Virus record (IMG/VR): IMGVR_UViG_3300043499_000086
Location: 1-52,791 of that record
Length of the DNA: 52,791 nucleotides
Strand: one strand, 5' to 3'
Origin: a virus
The number at the start of each line of letters is the position of its first letter. Position 1 is the stretch's first letter. This document shows positions 4,428-43,506 of this stretch, in pieces. The translations under genes were made by a program, and so were the position numbers. The notes beneath the pieces are model-generated. The model had not been told where the DNA came from and made no database searches. It was given only the letters and a program-made list of their open reading frames with translations.

Positions 4428-5015
4428 ATGAGCACCACACACCCCACCAGCCTGCGGACCCACGCGGACTGGGTTGCCTGGATCAAGAAGGGGCGCAGCG
4501 GATGCGACCGCCCCATCGGCAGCAACAGCCGAGCCCGCATCGACGGTGCGGGCGACGTGGCGTTGCGCTACTACGACACCGACGTTGTCATCTACGGCGC
4601 GGACGGCACGCTGACCATCGCCCACGAGGGCTGGGTCACGGCGCGCACCTTCCAGTTCATCGACCGCTTCGCCCCCGGCCGCCACTTCCGCAGCAAGGGC
4701 CGCGTGTTCTCCTGGCTGACCAACGGCAAAACCGAGCCGAAGGTGTGGAAGTGCCGCACCTGCAAGGGCGAGGGCCGGGGCCACCGGACCTACCTGTCGG
4801 CCTGGGACTACGAGACCCATGAGCGCATCGACCCGCCCGTGCGGGTCACCGATGAGTGGGAGTGCTACCGGTGCGAGGGCACCGGCCGTGCGGACTACGG
4901 CAGCAAGCCGCTGTACCTGCGCTGGGACCTGCCGTTCATGACGTTCGACCTGAACGACAACGACCCCAAGGCCCTCGTCCCGACCGCCGCTCACACCTGG
5001 GCGGTGGCGGCATGA
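4428..5015 (+). CDS. Unknown protein with DnaJ-like zinc motifs
   Basis: A 195-residue protein starting 18 bases after a palindrome copy, with TGAGAGGAAGTC before ATG. The first half is rich in aromatic residues. The second half has two motifs, CRTCKGEG (about 108-115) and CYRCEGTG (about 144-151), of the CxxCxGxG type found in DnaJ zinc fingers. Two such motifs could form one zinc site. It is probably a nucleic-acid or protein-binding accessory factor; the exact role is unknown. Confidence 0.7.
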   Translation: MSTTHPTSLRTHADWVAWIKKGRSGCDRPIGSNSRARIDGAGDVALRYYDTDVVIYGADGTLTIAHEGWVTARTFQFIDRFAPGRHFRSKGRVFSWLTNGKTEPKVWKCRTCKGEGRGHRTYLSAWDYETHERIDPPVRVTDEWECYRCEGTGRADYGSKPLYLRWDLPFMTFDLNDNDPKALVPTAAHTWAVAA

Positions 5016-5314
5016 CCGACGACCAGGGTGACAAGCCTGTCACCCATCCGATGTGGACCGTGGGCGCGCTGCTCTCGAACATGGCCGCCCTCCAGGCCGA
5101 GGACGAGGTCGAGACTGACCTCGTCTCCGTGGTCGTGGACGCGCTGCCCATGTGTGACATCCACAAGTACGACCTCGGGCAGCCGGACGTGCCCGCCACC
5201 TACGACGGCAAGACCAAGCGCGGCCCGTGGGCGTACATGTGCGGCGAGTGCTTCGACGCCAAGGGTGTCGGCCTCGGGACCGGCCTCGGCCAACGGCTGG
5301 AGGTCCGATCATGA
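5012..5314 (+). CDS. Small zinc-binding-like protein
   Basis: A 100-residue protein starting in an ATGA overlap. The N-terminus MTDDQGDKPVTH is encoded across the palindrome at 5026-5045. C-D-I-H (about residues 50-53) and CGEC (about 77-80) form a likely zinc site. Function unknown. Confidence 0.65.
   Translation: MTDDQGDKPVTHPMWTVGALLSNMAALQAEDEVETDLVSVVVDALPMCDIHKYDLGQPDVPATYDGKTKRGPWAYMCGECFDAKGVGLGTGLGQRLEVRS
5026..5045 (+). repeat. Dispersed palindrome copy 12
   Basis: 8-bp arms, loop AGCC. Encodes GDKPVT near the N-terminus of the gene at 5,012. Confidence 0.9.
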
Positions 5315-5538
5315 GGATCACGCTGCCGCTGGAGATGCTCCAGGTCATGATCGAGGGCGCGGAGCAGGTGCAGGGTGCGGCCAACGGCTTCGGTGAGTTG
5401 CTCACCTGCACCATCCGCGTGGCACCAGAGCAGGAGGGCGACCCCGCCCTCCTGCTCTCGTATGCGCGCGACCGTCGTGACTGGACCATCGAGTTCCCGC
5501 TGAACGAGAACGTGGGTGACAAGAATGTCACCCCGTAA
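5311..5538 (+). CDS. Small unknown protein
   Basis: A 75-residue protein in an ATGA overlap. Its C-terminus VGDKNVTP is encoded by the palindrome at 5514-5533. The rest is a mixed helix/strand sequence without motifs. Confidence 0.65.
   Translation: MRITLPLEMLQVMIEGAEQVQGAANGFGELLTCTIRVAPEQEGDPALLLSYARDRRDWTIEFPLNENVGDKNVTP
5514..5533 (+). repeat. Dispersed palindrome copy 13
   Basis: 8-bp arms, loop AGAA. Encodes the C-terminal GDKNVT of the gene at 5,311. Confidence 0.9.
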
Positions 5539-5569
5539 GACCCGACGAACCGCCCGAGAGAGGAACGCC

Positions 5570-5764
5570 ATGACCACACCCGCCCCCGAACCGACGACCG
5601 TGGTGAAGCGGCACGCGCTTCGCCGGGTCACGTTGCTGCGTGACCTGATGCACGAGTTGCAAGACGAAATCCTGGAGGACCCGGAGCGGCCTGCCCGCGG
5701 GAACCCGTTGCTCGACCAGTTCGAGAACGTCTCGCGGTCCTACCTGGCGGCGGCGTCCCGATGA
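5570..5764 (+). CDS. Small helical protein
   Basis: A 64-residue protein with CGAGAGAGGAACGCC before ATG and a palindrome copy 37 bases upstream. It contains an amphipathic helix (LLRDLMHELQDEIL). The ATGA overlap at its end couples it to the next gene. Function unknown. Confidence 0.6.
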   Translation: MTTPAPEPTTVVKRHALRRVTLLRDLMHELQDEILEDPERPARGNPLLDQFENVSRSYLAAASR

Positions 5765-5943
5765 GCCACGTCGCCGCGGACCCGACCAACCCGGAGTACC
5801 ACATCTGCCCGGAGCGGCGAGGCGCGCACCACCACCTCGCCATCTCCGGCCCGATGCACCACCGCATCCTGCGCTGCGCCCACTGTGGCAAGGCGGAGTC
5901 CACGTTGCGTGCGGAGATCACTCAGAAGGGACGGAAGCGATGA
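5761..5943 (+). CDS. Small His/Cys zinc-ribbon protein
   Basis: A 60-residue protein with clustered histidines (HHH near residue 25) and CAHC at residues 40-43, suggesting a small zinc-binding fold. It has ATGA overlaps at both ends. Function unknown. Confidence 0.6.
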   Translation: MSHVAADPTNPEYHICPERRGAHHHLAISGPMHHRILRCAHCGKAESTLRAEITQKGRKR

Positions 5944-6278
5944 GCGCGGTCCGCAGGCTGCGGCCGGTGGTCGCAGCCGAGACGGTGGCCGAGCAACTCC
6001 CGGCCCCCTACCTGGAGTGCCGGGACATGGGCCACCAGTGGGTCCATCGGACGGCGCATTGGGACGGGGCGCTGGCCTGCTACGTCGAGACGGTGGAGTG
6101 CCTGCGCTGCACCGCGGAGCGGGACCGGCACATGGGTCGTGACGGGTACCTCTCGTCCGCGACCCGCAACTCGTACCGCTACCCGGAGGGCTACCTCATC
6201 AGCACGGAGGAGGCGAACCTCATCAACAAGGAAGGGCGGGCCGCGGTCCGTCGTGCCCGGATCAGCAGTTGGCGGTGA
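5940..6278 (+). CDS. Unknown protein with CxxC pair; stop supplied by palindrome
   Basis: A 112-residue protein. A Cys at residue 26, a His-rich segment and C-x2-C near residue 55 suggest metal binding. The C-terminus is basic. Its TGA (6276-6278) is part of the palindrome GGTGACA at 6274-6291, one of several genes whose stop lies in the repeat. Role unknown. Confidence 0.65.
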   Translation: MSAVRRLRPVVAAETVAEQLPAPYLECRDMGHQWVHRTAHWDGALACYVETVECLRCTAERDRHMGRDGYLSSATRNSYRYPEGYLISTEEANLINKEGRAAVRRARISSWR

Positions 6279-6291
6279 CAACCTTGTCACC
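6274..6291 (+). repeat. Dispersed palindrome copy 14
   Basis: 7-bp arms, loop ACCT. Contains the TGA stop of the gene at 5,940. Confidence 0.9.
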
Positions 6292-6315
6292 CTCCCACCA
6301 CAGAGAGGAAGCACC

Positions 6316-6534
6316 GTGAAAAGCACCACCATCCACACCGCGACGCTGACGTTCCAGCACCGCGAGCAGTTCCGGGACACCTACACCGAGGTTGACCGGC
6401 GAGGGGCGTTCTTCCACTACTCGGAGGCGATCTTCGTCAAGGTCCCGCACGGGGTGACGCGAGGCTGGCGCAACAGCCGGAACTGGCCGTTCGGTCGCAA
6501 GATCAAGGTCACCGTGGAGGTGGTCGGGAAGTGA
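6316..6534 (+). CDS. Small basic protein
   Basis: A 72-residue protein starting at GTG after CCCACCACAGAGAGGAAGCACC, the leader that recurs after palindrome copies. It is basic and rich in aromatic residues. GTGA overlap with the next gene. Function unknown. Confidence 0.6.
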   Translation: MKSTTIHTATLTFQHREQFRDTYTEVDRRGAFFHYSEAIFVKVPHGVTRGWRNSRNWPFGRKIKVTVEVVGK

Positions 6535-6701
6535 AGCGATACCGCCTGACCTACCAGCCCGCCCCCGGTTGGGACGAGATGGTCTGGGAGCGGACTGCCG
6601 AGGAACTGCTGGTGCCTAACGGCGACGTACCGCTGATCGTCTGGATGTACCAGACCGCAGCGGAGCGAGGGCTGCCGATCAAGTTGGAGGAGGTGACATG
6701 A
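6531..6701 (+). CDS. Small Trp-rich protein
   Basis: A 56-residue protein starting at GTG overlapping the previous TGA. It contains several Trp and a C-terminal LEEVT. Its TGA overlaps the next ATG (ATGA). No family recognised. Confidence 0.55.
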   Translation: MKRYRLTYQPAPGWDEMVWERTAEELLVPNGDVPLIVWMYQTAAERGLPIKLEEVT

Positions 6702-7000
6702 CTGAGATGTGCGGTGCGATCTACCGGCGAGACCAGGCGCACGTTATCCAATGCACCTTCATCAAGGGGCACGAGTCCAAGTCCAACCACTCGTGGTTCG
6801 CACTACAGATTCAGGACCAGGTAGACGCAGAGGCACGAACGGTCGAGGTGAACCTGCCGATGCAGGTCCCCAAGAGCGTCGTGCCTCTGGTCGAGATCAT
6901 CACCTCAGGTGGGTTGGACGCCCACCTGGAGGTGATTCTGGCGGCGTGCCACGGACGAAAGCGAGCACGGCACGCCACCAGGAGAGGAGAAGGGCGATGA
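6698..7000 (+). CDS. Unknown protein, last gene of the P2 unit
   Basis: A 100-residue protein in an ATGA overlap. C at residue 5, C19 and H25 could bind metal. The C-terminus is basic (GRKRARHATRR). Two bases after its stop begins the stop codon of the opposite-strand gene at 7,003, so the two converge. Function unknown. Confidence 0.65.
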   Translation: MTEMCGAIYRRDQAHVIQCTFIKGHESKSNHSWFALQIQDQVDAEARTVEVNLPMQVPKSVVPLVEIITSGGLDAHLEVILAACHGRKRARHATRRGEGR

Positions 7001-7002
7001 AC

Positions 7003-7692
7003 CTAGACGACGGGGGCGGGCTCGGGATTGCCTCCGGTGTTGGGGTCCTCCGGCTTGCCGAGTCCGGCGTCGGAGGGGAGCCAGGTCCAGGTGGCCTGGT
7101 CGTTGTAGATGACGGCGACCCATTCTCCGTCACCAGTCGGAGCGCCCTCGGGCTCGTCGGGGAGGTTGTACGCCTTGGGGGCAGCGAACTCCGGGAGTCC
7201 CTGTCCGGGGCGGACCGGAGCCCAGGGGAGGTCGTTGTCCGGTCGGTCACCGACGCCGGGGAGACCCTGGTCGGGACGATTGGGACCCCAGGGGAGGTCC
7301 TGGTCGGGGCGTCCATAACCGGGGAGACCCTGGTCCGGGTGCCCGTAGCCGGGGAGACCCTGATCGGGACGACCGCCGCTGCCGGGAAGTCCCTGGTCGG
7401 GGCGTCCACCCCAGCCACCACCGGGGAGGCCCTGGTCCGGGCGTCCACCCGAACCCGGAAGGCCCTGGTCCGGACGGCCATAGCCGGGCAGGCCCTGGTC
7501 CGGTCGGTTCGGGCGACCCGGAAGTCCCTGGTCCGGGTGACCGTAGCCGGGAAGTCCCTGGTCCGGTCGTCCGTAGCCGGGGAGGCCCTGGTCAGGTCGG
7601 CCGCCGATGGGGCGACCGTAGCCGGGGTCAACCGGACCCTGGTCCTCGCCCTCGTCTACCCAGGCGCGGACCGTGACGTAACGAAAACCCAT
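7003..7692 (-). CDS. PDQGLPG-repeat protein, isolated reverse gene
   Basis: A 229-residue protein on the strand opposite to all neighbours. The start is set by GAGAGGAACGCTC before ATG. Residues 1-20 form a lead (GFRYVTVRAWVDEGEDQ). Residues about 25-165 contain roughly twelve units of RPDQGLPG with short Gly/Tyr/Ser spacers, and the C-terminus has a Trp-rich segment (WVAVIYNDQATWTW). Low-complexity PDQGLPG/PDNxLP proteins occur in several phages to my knowledge, with no function I can name. Proline-rich repeats of this type are usually extended and surface-exposed. Confidence 0.75.
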   Translation of the reverse strand: MGFRYVTVRAWVDEGEDQGPVDPGYGRPIGGRPDQGLPGYGRPDQGLPGYGHPDQGLPGRPNRPDQGLPGYGRPDQGLPGSGGRPDQGLPGGGWGGRPDQGLPGSGGRPDQGLPGYGHPDQGLPGYGRPDQDLPWGPNRPDQGLPGVGDRPDNDLPWAPVRPGQGLPEFAAPKAYNLPDEPEGAPTGDGEWVAVIYNDQATWTWLPSDAGLGKPEDPNTGGNPEPAPVV

Positions 7693-35592: not shown

Positions 35593-36092
35593 CAGATCGC
35601 CGGGAGCGTGGCGGTCCAGACACCCCCCACGCAGCCGCCCTCCGGGCCGTAGGAGGTCCAACCCCCTATGACGGGTAGTTGGTCATCCAGGCAGCAGATC
35701 ACGGCCCGCAGCGAGGCAGCCATGTCCGCCATCTGGAGTTCCGCCGAGGCCAGGTACGCCGCGTCGTCGGGCGGTGTCCCGTTCTCGTCCGGCAGCGGCG
35801 CACAACGAACCACGCCGACCTGGAACACCATGTCGATCAGGCCGACGCTGCACCGGGTCGGGGCGAGTTGGCCGAGGGTCAGCGCGGGCGTCATGCTGAC
35901 CGCGTTGACCCAGGCCATCCCGCCGCAGGTGCCGTCCTCACAGGCGTCGCAGAAGTCCAGGGCCACCTCGCCAGGAACGACGCCACAGAAGCAGGGAGCG
36001 GGCAGGCCGGAGGAGGCCAACTCCTGACACAGACACGTCGCCAGTCGTGTCAGGAGCGGCCAGACCTTCGTGTCCTCCCGGAACTCCACCAT
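35592..36092 (-). CDS. Head-tail connector / neck protein
   Basis: A 166-residue Cys-rich protein (CLCQ, CFC, CDACEDGTC, CC). Its place between the adaptor and the gp10-like protein suggests a stopper or tail-terminator role. The ATG shares one base with the preceding TGA. Identification is mostly from order. Confidence 0.55.
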   Translation of the reverse strand: MVEFREDTKVWPLLTRLATCLCQELASSGLPAPCFCGVVPGEVALDFCDACEDGTCGGMAWVNAVSMTPALTLGQLAPTRCSVGLIDMVFQVGVVRCAPLPDENGTPPDDAAYLASAELQMADMAASLRAVICCLDDQLPVIGGWTSYGPEGGCVGGVWTATLPAI

Positions 36093-37795
36093 CACTCAGT
36101 GGCGTCTTCCTCAGCCGCGTTGAGCGCGTCCAGGTCCTCCTGGGTGGCGGCCACGGTGATCGTGATGGAGGTCTCGGCCTCCTGGTCGCTGACGAAGGTG
36201 ACCTGTGGCGCGAACGTGCCCGCCGCCGCATAGGTGTGGGTGGCATACCCGCCGCCGTCCACGGTGAAGGGCGGGCTCTGGATCGCGGTGCCGTCACCCC
36301 AGTCGATGGTGGTGAAGTGATCGTTGGGCGGCAGCGGGTTCGAGGAACCGTCCACCGGACGAACCCCGAACGGGGCACCGACGAGGACCCCGCCAGTGGC
36401 GGGGTTCTTTTGCAGGTAGTAGTAGATGGCGACCGGGTAGGCGTAGAAGGTCGTCGTCGCTGGCTCGAAGTTCTCGGCCAGGTTCGCCGTGATGTCGAAG
36501 TCGCCAGCATTGGCGTAGGTGTGGGCGATGAACTGACCGATCAGCGGCGCTCGGGAGCCGCGGGTGAATGGCGGGGTCTGGAGCGCGGTCCCGTCACCCC
36601 AGTCGATGGAGACGATGTCCGCATCGACCAGGTCCGTGGTGCCGTCCGGGTACTGCGGGTCGTTGACGGCACCGACGTACTCGTACAGCCGGAGATGCAT
36701 CGCCGTGCCGGGGACCTGCCCGGCAGACGGCGAGACAATCGTGCTGGCCGGACCCCTCATCCCCTCGATGACCTCGACCGTGACCGAGTTCGACCCGATG
36801 ACCCCGACCGGGTAGGAGCCAGGGCCGAGGGGGAAGAACTCCTCCGGGACGAACAGCGCGGTCAGGCTGGTCGGGCTGGAGTAGGTGGTGCGGGCCGCCT
36901 CGTTGTTGATGAGGACGACCGAGGTCTTGCTGAACCCGGTGCCGGTGACCGTGACCATGTAGCCGCCGACATCGTCCAGCGGGATGGTGTCCGGGGAGAC
37001 GGCGGTGACCGTGACCGGGCCAGCGACCGGGGGCGGACCGCCACCCTCGACTCCGGTGATGAGCACCGCCAGTTCGCAGTCGTTGAACACCGTCACCGGG
37101 GTCTGCACGTTGACGTACCACCAGTTCGTCGGCTCGCCGCTGCCGGAGACATCGTGGTACGGGTCCATGACCCGGCTCGCGCCCTTGAGCACGGTCAGCC
37201 AGCCGGTTACCGCGATCTGGTCCACCGGCAGCCAGCAGTTCAGCGAGACCATCGCGCCCATCACCGTCTCCAGGTGACGGCCGACGCGGATGATCTCCTT
37301 GCCCATCCACTGTTCGGCCAGCGTCGGGTTGATGTGGATGACGGCCTGGCCCGTGTACTCGCACCGGGCGATGGTGTCGGCGTCGGCTAGCCCGCCCGCC
37401 TCGGTGGCGGGGCGGACCTCGAAGTCCTCGACGGGGATGAACCCACCGATGAGGTTGTCCTGAATCGTGCGGTTGACCCGCAGGTCGTTGTTCTTCATCG
37501 CGGTGGCCTGCATCGAGGGCAGGTCCATCGGACCGATGCACTGGAGGCCGGTGAAGACGGTACCCGGCACGCCGTTCACCCAGGTCAGTTGCCCGAGCCC
37601 GCGGTTCATGTTGATCGGCGCGCACGGGAAGTTGCCACCGATCATGACGCCAGTCCCGCAGACCGTCTCGTAGGTCCCGCCGTGGGCCAGGTGCGGGTCA
37701 TTGGTCGAGATGACGGTGGCGATGTCGGTGAGTTGGTCCGAGCCCGGAGGAATCGTCGGAGTGGGGATGATGGTGCCGGTCGGCTGAACGGTCAT
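36092..37795 (-). CDS. Virion protein with IPT and two PKD-like domains
   Basis: A 567-residue protein; AGAAGGAATCGTC precedes ATG. Residues 1-245 are a structural domain I cannot name (GLQCIGPMDLPSMQ; ARCEYTGQAVIHINPTLAEQ). Residues 258-343 form an IPT/TIG fold (VTVTAVSPDTIPLDDVGG, GTGFSKTSVVLINN). Two PKD-like domains follow (about 360-455 and 456-550), each with IDWGDGTA and an HTYA-type end. Such domains bind surfaces or decorate virions. Position suggests a neck or head-associated adhesin. Confidence 0.65.
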   Translation of the reverse strand: MTVQPTGTIIPTPTIPPGSDQLTDIATVISTNDPHLAHGGTYETVCGTGVMIGGNFPCAPINMNRGLGQLTWVNGVPGTVFTGLQCIGPMDLPSMQATAMKNNDLRVNRTIQDNLIGGFIPVEDFEVRPATEAGGLADADTIARCEYTGQAVIHINPTLAEQWMGKEIIRVGRHLETVMGAMVSLNCWLPVDQIAVTGWLTVLKGASRVMDPYHDVSGSGEPTNWWYVNVQTPVTVFNDCELAVLITGVEGGGPPPVAGPVTVTAVSPDTIPLDDVGGYMVTVTGTGFSKTSVVLINNEAARTTYSSPTSLTALFVPEEFFPLGPGSYPVGVIGSNSVTVEVIEGMRGPASTIVSPSAGQVPGTAMHLRLYEYVGAVNDPQYPDGTTDLVDADIVSIDWGDGTALQTPPFTRGSRAPLIGQFIAHTYANAGDFDITANLAENFEPATTTFYAYPVAIYYYLQKNPATGGVLVGAPFGVRPVDGSSNPLPPNDHFTTIDWGDGTAIQSPPFTVDGGGYATHTYAAAGTFAPQVTFVSDQEAETSITITVAATQEDLDALNAAEEDATE

Positions 37796-37849
37796 GACGA
37801 TTCCTTCTTCTCGGAGACGCGCGTACAACCCGCAGAGGCGCTAGACCGA

Positions 37850-37874: not shown

Positions 37875-38633
37875 CTACGGCCAGGTGATGGTCCGAACCA
37901 GGTTCGGCTCGTCCGGGGTCCACACCTGCGTCGGCATCCGCAGGTGGTGTGGGTTGAAGCGAGCGACCCAGGTGTCCACCTCACGGATTCCCGTCTCCCC
38001 GTTGGGGAACGCGCCGGAGGCGATCTCGTAGGAGACGCCCTGACGCGCAACGGAGGTGACGCCGGACGGGAGGCGGCACTTCTGCCCGTTGCACGCCTTC
38101 GCGTACTCGCACGCCAGCGTGCCCGCCGCGTAGGCCCCGAGCGCGTCCACCGGGATGGCGTTCAGGTAGGTCACCGAGAACGTGCCGACCTCGGTGTCCG
38201 CCAGCGCCATGTCCTGGCAGTCCGGCCAGCACTCGTCACCGAGGCGCACCAGCCACTTGCCGTCGTCCACCCGGTACGTCAGCGGGTCGAGGACCACGCC
38301 GTCGATCTTGACCTCCTGGACCGAGCCGATGGGGCGCGGCAGTTCCAGTTGGCAGATCGCGCCGCAGCCGCAGGTGTCCCCGCCGCAGGTGCAGTTGAAC
38401 CACTGGCCGGACCAGTTGACCGGCGCGAGCGGCTGGCCCGCGTAGTACGGCTGGTAGCCGTCACAGACCTTCCGGCACGGGCGCACCGTGATCGGGCAGC
38501 CGCCGACCCGGTAGCCGGTGAGCATCTGGAGCGTCGCCCCGGCCAGCGCGATGGACCGAATCTTCGTCGCGTTGTCATACGAGTCGAAGTCCGGGCAGCA
38601 CGAGTAGTCCACAGGCCAGCAGTAGTCGTCCAC
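37875..38633 (-). CDS. Possible separate head-tail adaptor from internal start
   Basis: In-frame GTG (38633) with AAGGAG exactly eight bases upstream, at the junction between the repeats and the Cys-rich adaptor region. It would give a 252-residue protein of normal adaptor size. It is not a separate frame; it is an alternative product of the 1326-codon gene. Confidence 0.5.
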   Translation of the reverse strand: MDDYCWPVDYSCCPDFDSYDNATKIRSIALAGATLQMLTGYRVGGCPITVRPCRKVCDGYQPYYAGQPLAPVNWSGQWFNCTCGGDTCGCGAICQLELPRPIGSVQEVKIDGVVLDPLTYRVDDGKWLVRLGDECWPDCQDMALADTEVGTFSVTYLNAIPVDALGAYAAGTLACEYAKACNGQKCRLPSGVTSVARQGVSYEIASGAFPNGETGIREVDTWVARFNPHHLRMPTQVWTPDEPNLVRTITWP

Positions 38634-41600
38634 AGGGCCTTCTCCTTCGTTGAAGATTGCGGTCACCTGGTCGGACCCAATGGCCTCGTCCTGGATGAAG
38701 ACGAACAGATCGACGGGTGGCACCAGTTCGCTGGTCACATCGTCCGCGCCAATGGCGTCGTCCGCTACCACCGCGCTCCGGTCGTAGATGACGCTCACCT
38801 CGTCGGAGCCGAGCGCCGTGTCGGCCAGGGACGTGGCGCGGCCCCACGTCGTCACGACGTGATCCAGCGCCACCCCGATGTCCGGGATGACGGAGGTCAG
38901 GCCGCGCGCCGTCGTGACGGCGTCGGAGCCGACTGCGGTGTCGGCTCCGGACCGGCCCCGAACCGCCAGGGTGACAAGGTTGTCACCCCCGACAGCGATG
39001 TCTCCGGCCCCGGCCTGTCCGGCTCCGGAACGCTGCAACGAGACCTCGTCCGCCCCGACTGCGGTGTCAGCGGCGGAGCGGACCACCGTCTTCTGGGCCG
39101 TCAGAAGGTCACTACCGACCGCGGTGTCAGCGATGAGGATGGTGCGCTGCCCGGCCAGCGTCTCGCTGCCGTAGGCCGAGTCGGCAATGACCCGCTCCCT
39201 GGTCCAGAGCAGGGTCACCGAGTCGGAGCCCGCTGCGGTGTCGGCCAGCGCCTTCTGGCTGCCGCTCGGGGCGACCGCCAGGTCCGAGCCGACCGCCACG
39301 TCGGCGGGGGTCCGCAGCCGTGACCACAGGACCGTCACGTCGTCGCTGCCCACGGCCAGGTCGTCGGCGGTGGCGAAGACGTTGACGACCCACAGGGCGG
39401 TCACCGCGTCGGAACCAACTGCGGCATCTGCCGCAGTTCGATCACGGGTCGCGGTCACCGTTACGTCGTCGGTGCCGACCGCGTTGTCGTCCACGGTCTC
39501 GACGGCCGAGCCGATCCGCGAGGAGGTGACCGTGTCGGAGCCCACCGCATGGTCGGCCTCGGTGCGGACCCGAGCGGCCAGGACGTTCGCGGAGTCGGTC
39601 CCACCGGCCACGTCGGCAATGACCCGGTCAACGGTCCGGACGATGGTGACCGAGTCGGTGCCTACTGCGCTGTCGGCGGCAAGTCGGCTAGCCGCCGACA
39701 GCGTGCTGACGCTATCGGACCCGACCGCTGTGTCGGCAGGGTTCGCGGTGAGTGCCTGCCCGGCCTCGAAGACGAAGGTGGCGGAGTCGGAGCCGGTGGC
39801 GAGGTCGGTGACGGTCTTGCCGGTCGCCTTGGTCACCGTCACCGCGTCGGTGCCATCGGCGCTGTCGGCAACGACGCGCACCCGTTCGGAGGTGGTCGTC
39901 GCGGCGTCGCTGCTGGTGGCAACGTCGGCGGGGTAGGTCGTCAGCGCAGCGGGCGGCGTGCCCATCCCGAGCGTGTAGTGGGCCTGGACCTCGCCCGCAG
40001 GCAGGACGCGCCCGTAGAGCGCGATGTTGGAGAACCGGCCTGCGAACGGCTGCTCCCCCAGGGTGAAACGCAGGAAAGGCGTGTTGATCGCTGGGATGCC
40101 GGTCCCAATACCGCTGTCCAGCGTGCCGCTGCCGACCAGGACGCCGTTCTGGTAGACCTTCCACGCGCCATTGCCCACCGTGACCACGAAGTGGTGGATG
40201 GAGTCCGGCATGACCTGGGGGTTCAGGACGGCGTTGTAGGCCGCGAGGCCGTTCCCGTTCCGGTCCGTGATGTTGCCGCCGAGGGAAGGCAGGTACGCCT
40301 CGAAGCCGGAGTTCAACTGCGCGGTGAACGAGACGAAGAAGTTGCACAGGTTGCGGTGCGGGTAGGTCGTGTGGGTCGGGGAGACCCATTGCTCGTAGGA
40401 GTAGGCCCCGGAAATCTCCGGTATCTGGGTCGTGTGCGTCTCCGCGCCCTCGTTCTGCGGGACAGCGGGCAGCGCCGTTGACGGCCCCAGCCCGTAACCG
40501 ATGGGCGGACCCTGGGTGTGGACTGTGCCGTTCGCTGGGCCTGCTGGCTGCCAGGTCGCCGGGTACTCGGGGATGATGCTGTTCGCGGCGACAGCCTGAC
40601 CGGAGGGTTCATCGAACTTCCAGTAGTGGAGCGCCCCGGAGGCGACCACCGCCTCGTCGTAGTTGGCAACGCGAAGCGTTCCCGCGACGTTGATGTTGTC
40701 GATGTTGGTGCCCTGGGCGGTGCCCGACGCGGCCCAGAACTGGCCGAACACCCCGTGGGTGAAGTGCTCGCCGTCCAGGTGCGGGGCGAGGTCCAACGTG
40801 TTCGTGACGACGACCGCGTTGTCGGAGATGCGTCGCACCGTGCAGGTGACGACGGTGCCGACCGCCTGAATGGTGACCCGGTACCAGGTGTCGAGCGGGA
40901 GGTTGGCCTGTCGAGGGCCTATCGAAGTCATGCTGTTGTTGGTGATCCGCATGAAGCCGCTGCTGTCACCGGAACTCTCAAGACGGACCGTGAAGCCGTC
41001 CATGCCGTTGACCGGATCGGCACCGTTGGGGGTACACCAGAACATGGCCTCGTAGATGTCCCGGCCACCGCCCTGGAGCATGTCGAAGGTGTAGGTGAAG
41101 TCGCCCGTGATGTCCCAGCGCGAGTACGGCTTGCCTCGCCACCCTCGGTACGCGCCGTTGGTCCACAGCGACGGGGCCGGGTTGCCGACCGCCGCGTCGA
41201 GCGTCACCGGGTACTGACCGGGGAACGGGTCGGGAGCAACGGTGACTACGTCGATGTCCCGAGGCAGCCCGTTGGCGAAGGTCTCCGGGAACACCAGCGG
41301 CGGCGGACCGGCGAACACGAACGTCGCCTCGTCGGTGCCCTCCGCTGTGTCGGCCGGGTTCTCGAACCGAGGAATCGTGACCGAGTAGTCCACCGTCACG
41401 TCGGCGTGGTCAATGGAGCCGACGCGGCTCTGGGTGCTGCTCGCCCCGTTGAAGGTCGTGCGGACCTTGAAGTTCGCTGCCTGCAACTGCGCCAGGGTGA
41501 CCGGGAATATCGCCGTGTCGTTGCTGGGCACAGTCGTATCGGCCCCGGTGCCCGCTGTCCCAAGCGGGGTGGTCCCGCTGTACGGCTGGAACCGGATCGA

Positions 41601-41855
41601 GACGAACCGCGCGGCGTTGTTGACCAGGGTGCGGATCGTCACCGAGACGCTGTTGATCGTCGCGCCAGCCGGGATCGAGGAGAAGTCGTAGCCGCTGGTC
41701 TCGATGTAGCCGATGGCGTTGGAGACGCTGCTCGTCCAGGTCGCGTAGGTCGCCGGGGTGCTGCCCGGCGTCCCGTCTACCGCATTGGTGACGTTGGCCC
41801 AGGTGGTCCCAGAAGTGACCGGCGTACCGGAGCCACGCCTAGTGAGGGTAGGCAT
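37875..41855 (-). CDS. Giant virion protein: LamG-like domains, AVGSD repeats, C-terminal head-tail adaptor
   Basis: A 1326-residue continuous frame. Residues 1-160 are a beta domain, 187-395 and 405-630 are LamG-like domains (the second with SYEQWVS, WKVYQNGVLVGSG, GRFSNIALYGR). Residues 640-1070 hold about 21 units of roughly 20 residues around ADTAVGSDxVT. Residues 1075-1326 (CWPVDYSCCPDF, MLTGYRVGGCPITVRPC, many Cys) look like the actinophage head-to-tail adaptor, normally a separate protein of about 250 residues. No stop separates the parts. An internal GTG at 38633 could also make the adaptor alone. The palindrome at 38969-38988 sits in one repeat unit, encoding GGDNLVT. Confidence 0.7.
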   Translation of the reverse strand: MPTLTRRGSGTPVTSGTTWANVTNAVDGTPGSTPATYATWTSSVSNAIGYIETSGYDFSSIPAGATINSVSVTIRTLVNNAARFVSIRFQPYSGTTPLGTAGTGADTTVPSNDTAIFPVTLAQLQAANFKVRTTFNGASSTQSRVGSIDHADVTVDYSVTIPRFENPADTAEGTDEATFVFAGPPPLVFPETFANGLPRDIDVVTVAPDPFPGQYPVTLDAAVGNPAPSLWTNGAYRGWRGKPYSRWDITGDFTYTFDMLQGGGRDIYEAMFWCTPNGADPVNGMDGFTVRLESSGDSSGFMRITNNSMTSIGPRQANLPLDTWYRVTIQAVGTVVTCTVRRISDNAVVVTNTLDLAPHLDGEHFTHGVFGQFWAASGTAQGTNIDNINVAGTLRVANYDEAVVASGALHYWKFDEPSGQAVAANSIIPEYPATWQPAGPANGTVHTQGPPIGYGLGPSTALPAVPQNEGAETHTTQIPEISGAYSYEQWVSPTHTTYPHRNLCNFFVSFTAQLNSGFEAYLPSLGGNITDRNGNGLAAYNAVLNPQVMPDSIHHFVVTVGNGAWKVYQNGVLVGSGTLDSGIGTGIPAINTPFLRFTLGEQPFAGRFSNIALYGRVLPAGEVQAHYTLGMGTPPAALTTYPADVATSSDAATTTSERVRVVADSADGTDAVTVTKATGKTVTDLATGSDSATFVFEAGQALTANPADTAVGSDSVSTLSAASRLAADSAVGTDSVTIVRTVDRVIADVAGGTDSANVLAARVRTEADHAVGSDTVTSSRIGSAVETVDDNAVGTDDVTVTATRDRTAADAAVGSDAVTALWVVNVFATADDLAVGSDDVTVLWSRLRTPADVAVGSDLAVAPSGSQKALADTAAGSDSVTLLWTRERVIADSAYGSETLAGQRTILIADTAVGSDLLTAQKTVVRSAADTAVGADEVSLQRSGAGQAGAGDIAVGGDNLVTLAVRGRSGADTAVGSDAVTTARGLTSVIPDIGVALDHVVTTWGRATSLADTALGSDEVSVIYDRSAVVADDAIGADDVTSELVPPVDLFVFIQDEAIGSDQVTAIFNEGEGPVDDYCWPVDYSCCPDFDSYDNATKIRSIALAGATLQMLTGYRVGGCPITVRPCRKVCDGYQPYYAGQPLAPVNWSGQWFNCTCGGDTCGCGAICQLELPRPIGSVQEVKIDGVVLDPLTYRVDDGKWLVRLGDECWPDCQDMALADTEVGTFSVTYLNAIPVDALGAYAAGTLACEYAKACNGQKCRLPSGVTSVARQGVSYEIASGAFPNGETGIREVDTWVARFNPHHLRMPTQVWTPDEPNLVRTITWP
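38969..38988 (-). repeat. Dispersed palindrome copy 35
   Basis: 8-bp arms, loop ACCT on the reverse strand. In an AVGSD repeat unit, encoding GDNLVT. Confidence 0.9.
39417..39438 (-). promoter_or_regulatory. AACTGCGGCA palindrome, copy 3
   Basis: AACTGCGGCA-TC-TGCCGCAGTT inside the AVGSD-repeat part of the giant virion gene, far from any visible promoter. Confidence 0.45.
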
Positions 41856-41882
41856 GGTGCTACCCCCTCACGTCGTCGTAGA

Positions 41883-42546: not shown

Positions 42547-43506
42547 TTACGCCTCGGCTCCGACCGGCTCGGAGTCCTGCGGCTCGGCGTCCTGCGTCTC
42601 GGAGTCAGCGGCCATGACCGCCGCGTCCGAAGCCCAGGCGGTGCCGGTCCAGTGAGCCTTCTGGTTGTTTCCCAGCAGGACGTGCTGGCCCGGAGTCCAG
42701 GCCGTGGTCGGGCTGGCCGTGACGCCGGTCATGCCCGCGAGGCTCTGCGGAGCGTAGGAGTCCACCGGAGTCCAGGTGCCGGGGGTGCCAGCGGTCGCAC
42801 CGGTCGCGGGGACACCGCTGGAGATGCAGTCACAGGCGGCCTCAGGCGGGGCCACGTCGGTCAGTTGGACGTGCAGGTGGTCGCCACTGAGGATCGGCTC
42901 CAGGAGAGGCCCTGCGGTGCCGCCAGAGCCCCGGACGACGTTGTACGGGCCGACGCCCCACCCGGAGCCCGTCTTGGTCGCCGCACCGTTGATGGTGAAC
43001 GAGACCGCCGCGTTCTCAATGGTGAAGTCACCCAGCGTCCCGCCCTGCATGAACGGCACGAGGATGTAGCCGTAGGTGCCCTGCGCCTCCGGGTTCTCCG
43101 GGTCGCAGGCGACCTGGGGAACGTTGCTCCAGAGTTCGAGCGCGAAGCCGTAGTCGCAGGCCGACCGGTCCGAGTTGACCCGGAAGCCCACGGCGTTGCC
43201 CTGCCAGTCGTAGACCGCAGCCTGACCGGTGAGCATGGCGTACAACTCGGGGTTGACCGCACAGAACGTGATGACCGCGGTGTAGCCGGTCAGGGTCGGG
43301 CAGGCCGCGTCACGAACGCAGACCTTGCCCGAGGCGTTCGTGACGCTGATCTCCTCGCCCTCATCGGTGTTGGCCGTGAAGGCGACGGACACGAACCCGT
43401 CAGTGGTGACCGATCCGCACGCGCCCGCCTTGGGACGCCCGCAGCCGTCGAGGGCCGTAGCCCGCATCACCCGCCCACGGACCAGTGGGAAACAGTTGTT
43501 CGACAC
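42547..43506 (-). CDS. Putative major tail protein
   Basis: A 319-residue protein starting at GTG after GACGAGGAGTAGGCCC. The N-terminal 1-220 (SNNCFPLVRGRVMR..LDGCG, VTTDGFVSVAFTANTDEGEE, VGFRVNSDRSACDYGFALELW, TLGDFTIENAAVSFTINGA, GWGVGPYNVV) follows a pattern I associate with the major tail tube protein of Streptomyces phages. Its place right after the capsid gene is early for a tail tube gene, so a head-decoration role remains possible. The C-terminal 235-319 is a flexible domain with a charged end. Confidence 0.55.
   Translation of the reverse strand: MSNNCFPLVRGRVMRATALDGCGRPKAGACGSVTTDGFVSVAFTANTDEGEEISVTNASGKVCVRDAACPTLTGYTAVITFCAVNPELYAMLTGQAAVYDWQGNAVGFRVNSDRSACDYGFALELWSNVPQVACDPENPEAQGTYGYILVPFMQGGTLGDFTIENAAVSFTINGAATKTGSGWGVGPYNVVRGSGGTAGPLLEPILSGDHLHVQLTDVAPPEAACDCISSGVPATGATAGTPGTWTPVDSYAPQSLAGMTGVTASPTTAWTPGQHVLLGNNQKAHWTGTAWASDAAVMAADSETQDAEPQDSEPVGAEA

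Follow-up and report, generated by a model that had tools for sequence, protein, structure and literature searches.

The stretch of DNA analyzed here, hereafter the window, is the whole 52,791 nucleotides of IMG/VR virus record IMGVR_UViG_3300043499_000086. It carries a single open reading frame in which a head-tail adaptor is preceded by a lectin-containing tip and a long repeat stalk (Table 1). On balance, this gene probably encodes a neck-anchored adhesion fiber that is one polypeptide with the head-tail adaptor, together with an internal start that would supply bare adaptors.

Table 1. Features of the fused gene and its neighbors (window coordinates).
Feature	Coordinates	Strand	Remarks
Fused ORF: tip, repeat stalk and head-tail adaptor	37875..41855	-	1326 aa; architecture common to L002, L050 and L051/L052
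SD GAGGGGG of full-length start ATG 41855	41863..41869	-	duplex energy -12.7 kcal/mol
N-terminal tip domain, residues 1-165	41361..41855	-	family: none; followed by isolated repeat unit at residue 169
Second tip domain, residues ~190-395	40671..41288	-	LamG-like by eye only
Laminin_G_3 (ConA-like lectin) domain, residues 472-624	39984..40442	-	Pfam PF13385, E 3.4e-14
Stalk, 21 D-x-A-x-G-[ST]-D repeats of ~20 aa each, residues 641-1066	38658..39935	-	
Internal SD AAGGAG	38642..38647	-	GGAGAA in-frame dicodon once per fused ORF, at this site
Internal start GTG, residue 1075	38631..38633	-	start position of stand-alone orthologous adaptors; ATG in L050, L051 and L049
Head-tail adaptor domain / candidate short product, 252 aa	37875..38633	-	phrog_783; model resembles neck adaptors of PDB and BFVD
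Protein of unknown function, phrog_5417, 186 aa	41883..42443	-	in inserted cassette; orthologue precedes fused ORF in L050 and L051
Major tail protein, phrog_792	42547..43506	-	directly precedes adaptor in most relatives
Next gene, likely start ATG 37795	36092..37828	-	virion-type N-domain, TIG and PKD domains

A head-tail adaptor continuous with a tip and a repeat stalk

The frame (41855..37875, minus strand) runs from an ATG through 1326 codons with zero internal stops, and holds the only adaptor copy in the record. Residues 1080-1320 match the phrog_783 head-tail adaptor (profile 5-252/254, E 1.9e-74), and the gene sits where a phrog_783 member is expected, after the major tail protein and before later tail genes. 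This actinophage family spans Gordonia, Mycobacterium, Microbacterium and Streptomyces phages as well as cyanophage Pam4, whose adaptor is 48% identical to that of the window and occupies the same place after the major tail protein. Judged by the profile match, the C-terminal 252 residues are a true phrog_783 head-tail adaptor and a clear member of the family. In the seven phrog_783 isolates inspected, adaptors measure about 230-305 aa and bear no fiber, whereas the window adaptor has about 1,074 extra preceding residues.

A structure model of the adaptor part, built on 73 sequences, had a core with pLDDT above 90 over about 130 residues. The model resembled neck chains of T5, DT57C, Mycofy1, phage 812 and GTA at low TM-scores (0.2-0.5), probably because the stalk end and loops were poorly modeled; despite these scores, it displayed the helical core, beta-sandwich and beta-hairpin of the adaptor fold. 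Its best PDB matches were the T5, DT57C and Mycofy1 neck chains and its best BFVD match was a Gordonia adaptor; annotated actinophage adaptors also resembled it. A sequence search of the PDB with the adaptor returned no significant match. The first-pass annotation had described the last 250 residues as a standard adaptor fused to a LamG and repeat protein, and the uninterrupted frame, the phrog_783 match, the neck-adaptor-like model and the same fusion in L050 and L051/L052 bear out this description. Adaptors assemble as dodecamers beneath the portal, toward which their C-terminal arm points in Douge (PMC13033339), and by homology with such proteins the window adaptor would also be dodecameric. 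About ten cysteines are nearly invariant in the adaptor family (window 37878-38633 and relatives) and may bind metal or form disulfides in the neck.

Pfam recognized one Laminin_G_3 domain in the fused frame. Two LamG-like domains had been proposed, and one of these stands; the other, between residues ~190 and 400, had no significant match in Pfam, PHROG or PDB sequences and is only probable. The ~400 residues N-terminal of Laminin_G_3 fall outside any recognized family (Pfam, PHROG, PDB sequence), and PDB sequence searches with the N-terminal part and with the second tip domain yielded nothing significant. Since the lectin fold was identified by sequence, carbohydrate binding by the tip is a prediction. 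Of the repeats, which had been put at about 21, 21 D-x-A-x-G-[ST]-D units lie between residues 644 and 1062, with one isolated unit at 169. Their spacing of 18, 20, 22 or 24 residues is always even, which suggests that the stalk packs as alternating beta-strands. An AlphaFold model of the tip and stalk (3 sequences) was discarded for its mean pLDDT of 33, so fiber shape and oligomeric state (trimer or monomer, number per neck) are guesses.

When searched against Pfam, PHROG and NCBIfam, the fused protein had no match to any collar or whisker family; its family matches were LamG_3, phrog_783 and weak ones to families of unknown function. Its likeness to neck fibers is thus one of how it would work, not one of homology to collar or whisker families. 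In the isolated-phage collection, neither tip nor stalk had a relative apart from a weak LamG match in Verrucomicrobia phage P8625, and contig scans with the adaptor and stalk alignments gave no relative in a named host or prophage. The window encodes 0 tRNAs. Distantly similar ~20-aa repeats (25-29% identity) occur in four marine viral contigs (L193-L196), where one protein reaches 1779 aa; these repeat proteins matched no family.

The fusion is conserved in three lineages

A second assembly, IMGVR_UViG_3300009168_000132 (L002), is 99.85% identical to the window over 14.8 kb with zero indels and the same frame open; all 4 differences inside the fused ORF are synonymous. The same stalk-adaptor fusion occurs in L050 and in L051/L052; their major tail proteins share 64% identity with that of the window. 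The fusion is therefore open in four assemblies representing three lineages, all metagenomic and belonging to a small soil-phage group. The alignment of stalk and junction is colinear across the three, with the junction consensus PPVD..V.I.D.A.G.DQ..A....GE..(M/V)D.YCWPVDY; the junction-spanning sequence is DQVTAIFNEGEGPV.

Across the fused lineages, dN/dS was 0.42-0.57 for the stalk and 0.28-0.41 for the adaptor, and no disrupted stalk copies were found. Between the window and either L050 or L051, stalk dS was about 0.9-1.0, yet the frame has remained open. Since stalk dS is near 1 and dN/dS is 0.42-0.57, the frame has been kept open over a long divergence, and these ratios indicate purifying selection on stalk and junction. 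Stalk and adaptor are retained from lineage to lineage but the tips are unrelated; in L051, a tip of the L050 type is encoded by a gene of its own (36% identity). The phrog_5417 protein accompanies the fusion cassette in 3 of 3 lineages and is possibly a fiber accessory or chaperone.

A sequencing error hiding a stop before 38,633 had been named as a possible source of the fusion; the indel-free L002 assembly and the diverged fused lineages exclude, at the sequence level, that a stop was lost through error or recent accident. Orthologues encoded as two separate genes had also been anticipated. Other cargo is indeed separate in relatives, but every orthologue found of the window-type stalk is fused to the adaptor.

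The gap before the adaptor is a variable cargo slot

Most of the 118 distinct adaptors compared are plain proteins of 250-300 aa. The adaptor almost directly follows the major tail protein in 70 of the 118, while more than 600 nt of extra sequence separates the two in the other 48. Separate genes in this gap (e.g. L005, L155, L180 and L022) encode collagen, a GDPD enzyme, an M23 peptidase and a Stealth_CR2-like protein. Since fiber-like, lectin, collagen and wall-enzyme genes lie there in many relatives, the gap reads as a variable cargo slot for surface-type genes, and the best reading is that in the window clade cargo from this slot was incorporated into the adaptor. L049, whose full major tail protein is the closest outside the window virus (87% identical), has no stalk.

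Coding N-terminal adaptor fusions among the 118 were confined to the window clade and L123. In the latter, an independent N-terminal fusion, the adaptor (6662-7126) begins with a Gp77 fiber-tail adaptor domain (PF23148, E 4e-20). Just before this adaptor, L123 has a separate gene (4642-6684) for a 681-aa repeat protein (phrog_19249 minor tail protein). About 25 other adaptors also seemed to be extended at the N-terminus, by 60-330 codons; because GC at codon position 3 is low there, these stretches were dismissed as frames open by chance in GC-rich DNA.

True C-terminal extensions were found in L049, L003, L087 and L066/L067. Those of L049 (6880-9135) and L003 (8980-11673) are PKD arrays of about 500-640 aa, homologous to the PKD domains of the window's next gene. 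By eye, the adaptor C-terminus of L087 (10953-13073) runs into collagen-like G-x-y repeats, and the contig end precedes a stop. Viewed across the relatives, the adaptor and the preceding gap seem to form a hot spot for modules of the host-surface kind, namely lectins, collagen, PKD domains and wall enzymes.

A conserved internal start at the stalk-adaptor junction

The first-pass annotation had noted an in-frame GTG at 38633 with AAGGAG 8 nt upstream, and this site is both present (SD at 38647-38642) and conserved in position across the three lineages. It coincides with the start of stand-alone adaptors, as seen by comparing L049 (MDDYCWPLD) with the window ((V/M)DDYCWPVD). The junction start codon is GTG in the window and ATG in both L050 and L051, and each lineage has an SD 5-8 nt upstream (AAGGAG, TAGGAG and TAGGAG, respectively). 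The SD:anti-SD duplex of the window GTG (-9.6 kcal/mol) ranked 7 of 287 among in-frame internal start codons of structural genes. Because the site is conserved and in the orthologous position, a chance SD match was rejected.

GGA accounts for only 5-8% of glycine codons, and GGA GAA occurs in frame exactly once in each of the three fused genes, at the internal SD. The residue pair that it encodes, GE, is itself conserved, so protein-level constraint may account for some of the conservation of GGAGAA. RNA around the internal start falls among the least structured 2-3% of codons in L050 and L051, and at 31% (ordinary) in the window. Taken together, these features are good but indirect evidence that the internal start is used to make the plain 252-aa adaptor.

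Proposed mechanism and alternative explanations

In the mechanism that we favor, the C-terminal 252 residues would take their place in the neck ring, with the repeat stalk projecting outward from the adaptor N-terminus and the variable lectin-like tips presented to the host surface. The conserved internal ribosome-binding site would also yield the plain adaptor, and the ring would then be a mixture of bare and fiber-bearing subunits. A fiber first encoded in the cargo slot would thereby have become covalently anchored to the neck ring. An adhesion fiber is proposed because a fixed ring and stalk with exchanged tips recalls receptor-binding fibers; a fixed anchor with a variable tip is the usual pattern of such fibers in phages. 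More tentatively, we regard the adaptor as an adhesion platform, in which one gene with two starts gives a mixed ring bearing covalent lectin-tipped fibers, and in which tips are swapped while stalk, ring and internal start are kept.

Were only the full-length protein made, every adaptor subunit would bear a fiber, and the internal GTG and SD would be leftovers of a stand-alone adaptor gene. A leftover would lie where the internal start does, at the stand-alone start position; GE is also a conserved residue pair, and twelve slender chains could conceivably fit round the neck ring. However, the rare-codon GGAGAA has been kept in three lineages despite a stalk dS of about 1 (window against the others), and a start-competent codon (GTG/ATG/ATG) persists while adjoining residues change, making this alternative unlikely. 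The converse, that the adaptor comes mainly from the internal start and the full-length protein is a minor, dispensable by-product whose stalk is a captured cassette of little function, would suit both the lack of a stalk in L049, for all the similarity of its major tail protein, and the role of the gap as a site of variable cargo in 48 of the 118 relatives. It is improbable in light of purifying selection on the stalk, the lack of disrupted copies and the SD of the full-length ATG, the strongest among eight gene starts tested.

Alternatively, a fused precursor might be cleaved between stalk and adaptor, e.g. by a phage protease of the capsid-maturation type, with the fiber then mounted elsewhere on the head, neck or tail. 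A Pam4 gene upstream of the major capsid gene is annotated as a capsid maturation protease, and fiber-like cargo beside the adaptor is encoded by separate genes in relatives. Yet no cleavage motif was found, the junction is conserved and repeat-like, and the internal start already gives a free adaptor without cleavage; we consider processing highly improbable. That a missed stop or frameshift divides two ordinary genes, as the stand-alone adaptor of most relatives might suggest, is next to inconceivable: an almost identical second assembly has no indels, and the fusion is likewise open in three diverged lineages.

Comparison with known neck appendages

A neck ring with a few long appendages had been put forward as a new virion design, which was an overstatement: neck fibers with carbohydrate-binding tips and an adaptor with an N-terminal Ig domain are already known. 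What appears new, from its sequence, is a long lectin-repeat fiber continuous with the adaptor. The literature searched contained no report of an adaptor-LamG fusion, and a >1000-residue lectin-repeat fiber continuous with an adaptor and accompanied by a conserved internal start was absent from that literature and from isolated phages.

The adaptor of the siphophage R4C, a roseophage, has a 106-residue N-terminal Ig-like domain at the neck periphery that contacts the capsid; its proposed role is structural, and its authors considered a function in adsorption unlikely (PMC10276861). Both proteins have an in-frame N-terminal domain ahead of the adaptor core, and the peripheral location of the R4C domain implies that an N-terminal stalk could exit the ring outward. 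In contrast to the window protein, the R4C adaptor is described, in the passages of that report concerning it, with no lectin, repeats or internal start. Family matching found no Ig-like domain beside the window adaptor core, which a repeat unit abuts.

The neck passage structure of lactococcal phages (TP901-1 and 936 phages) consists of neck fibers with carbohydrate-binding modules and variable tips (PMC6669499, PMC10747895), and is a separate collar protein, held around the portal/adaptor by its N-terminus. In the window protein, the adaptor itself would be the anchor and the polarity is reversed, with the tip at the N-terminus. Fibrous neck or collar appendages also include T4 wac whiskers, XM1 gp40 collar spikes and phi29 gp12 (summarized in PMC10491603). 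These are separate gene products rather than adaptor fusions. Neck fibers are usually separate proteins clamped around the neck, whereas here the anchor would be a core ring component. If this is correct, two translation starts would set the number of fibers, rather than a docking ring, and the neck would be a second, little-noticed site of host contact and a natural fusion point for testing. The fiber-tail adaptor gp77 of podophage GP4 (PF23148) offers a further comparison; its domain, absent from the window protein, is the one present on the L123 adaptor N-terminus.
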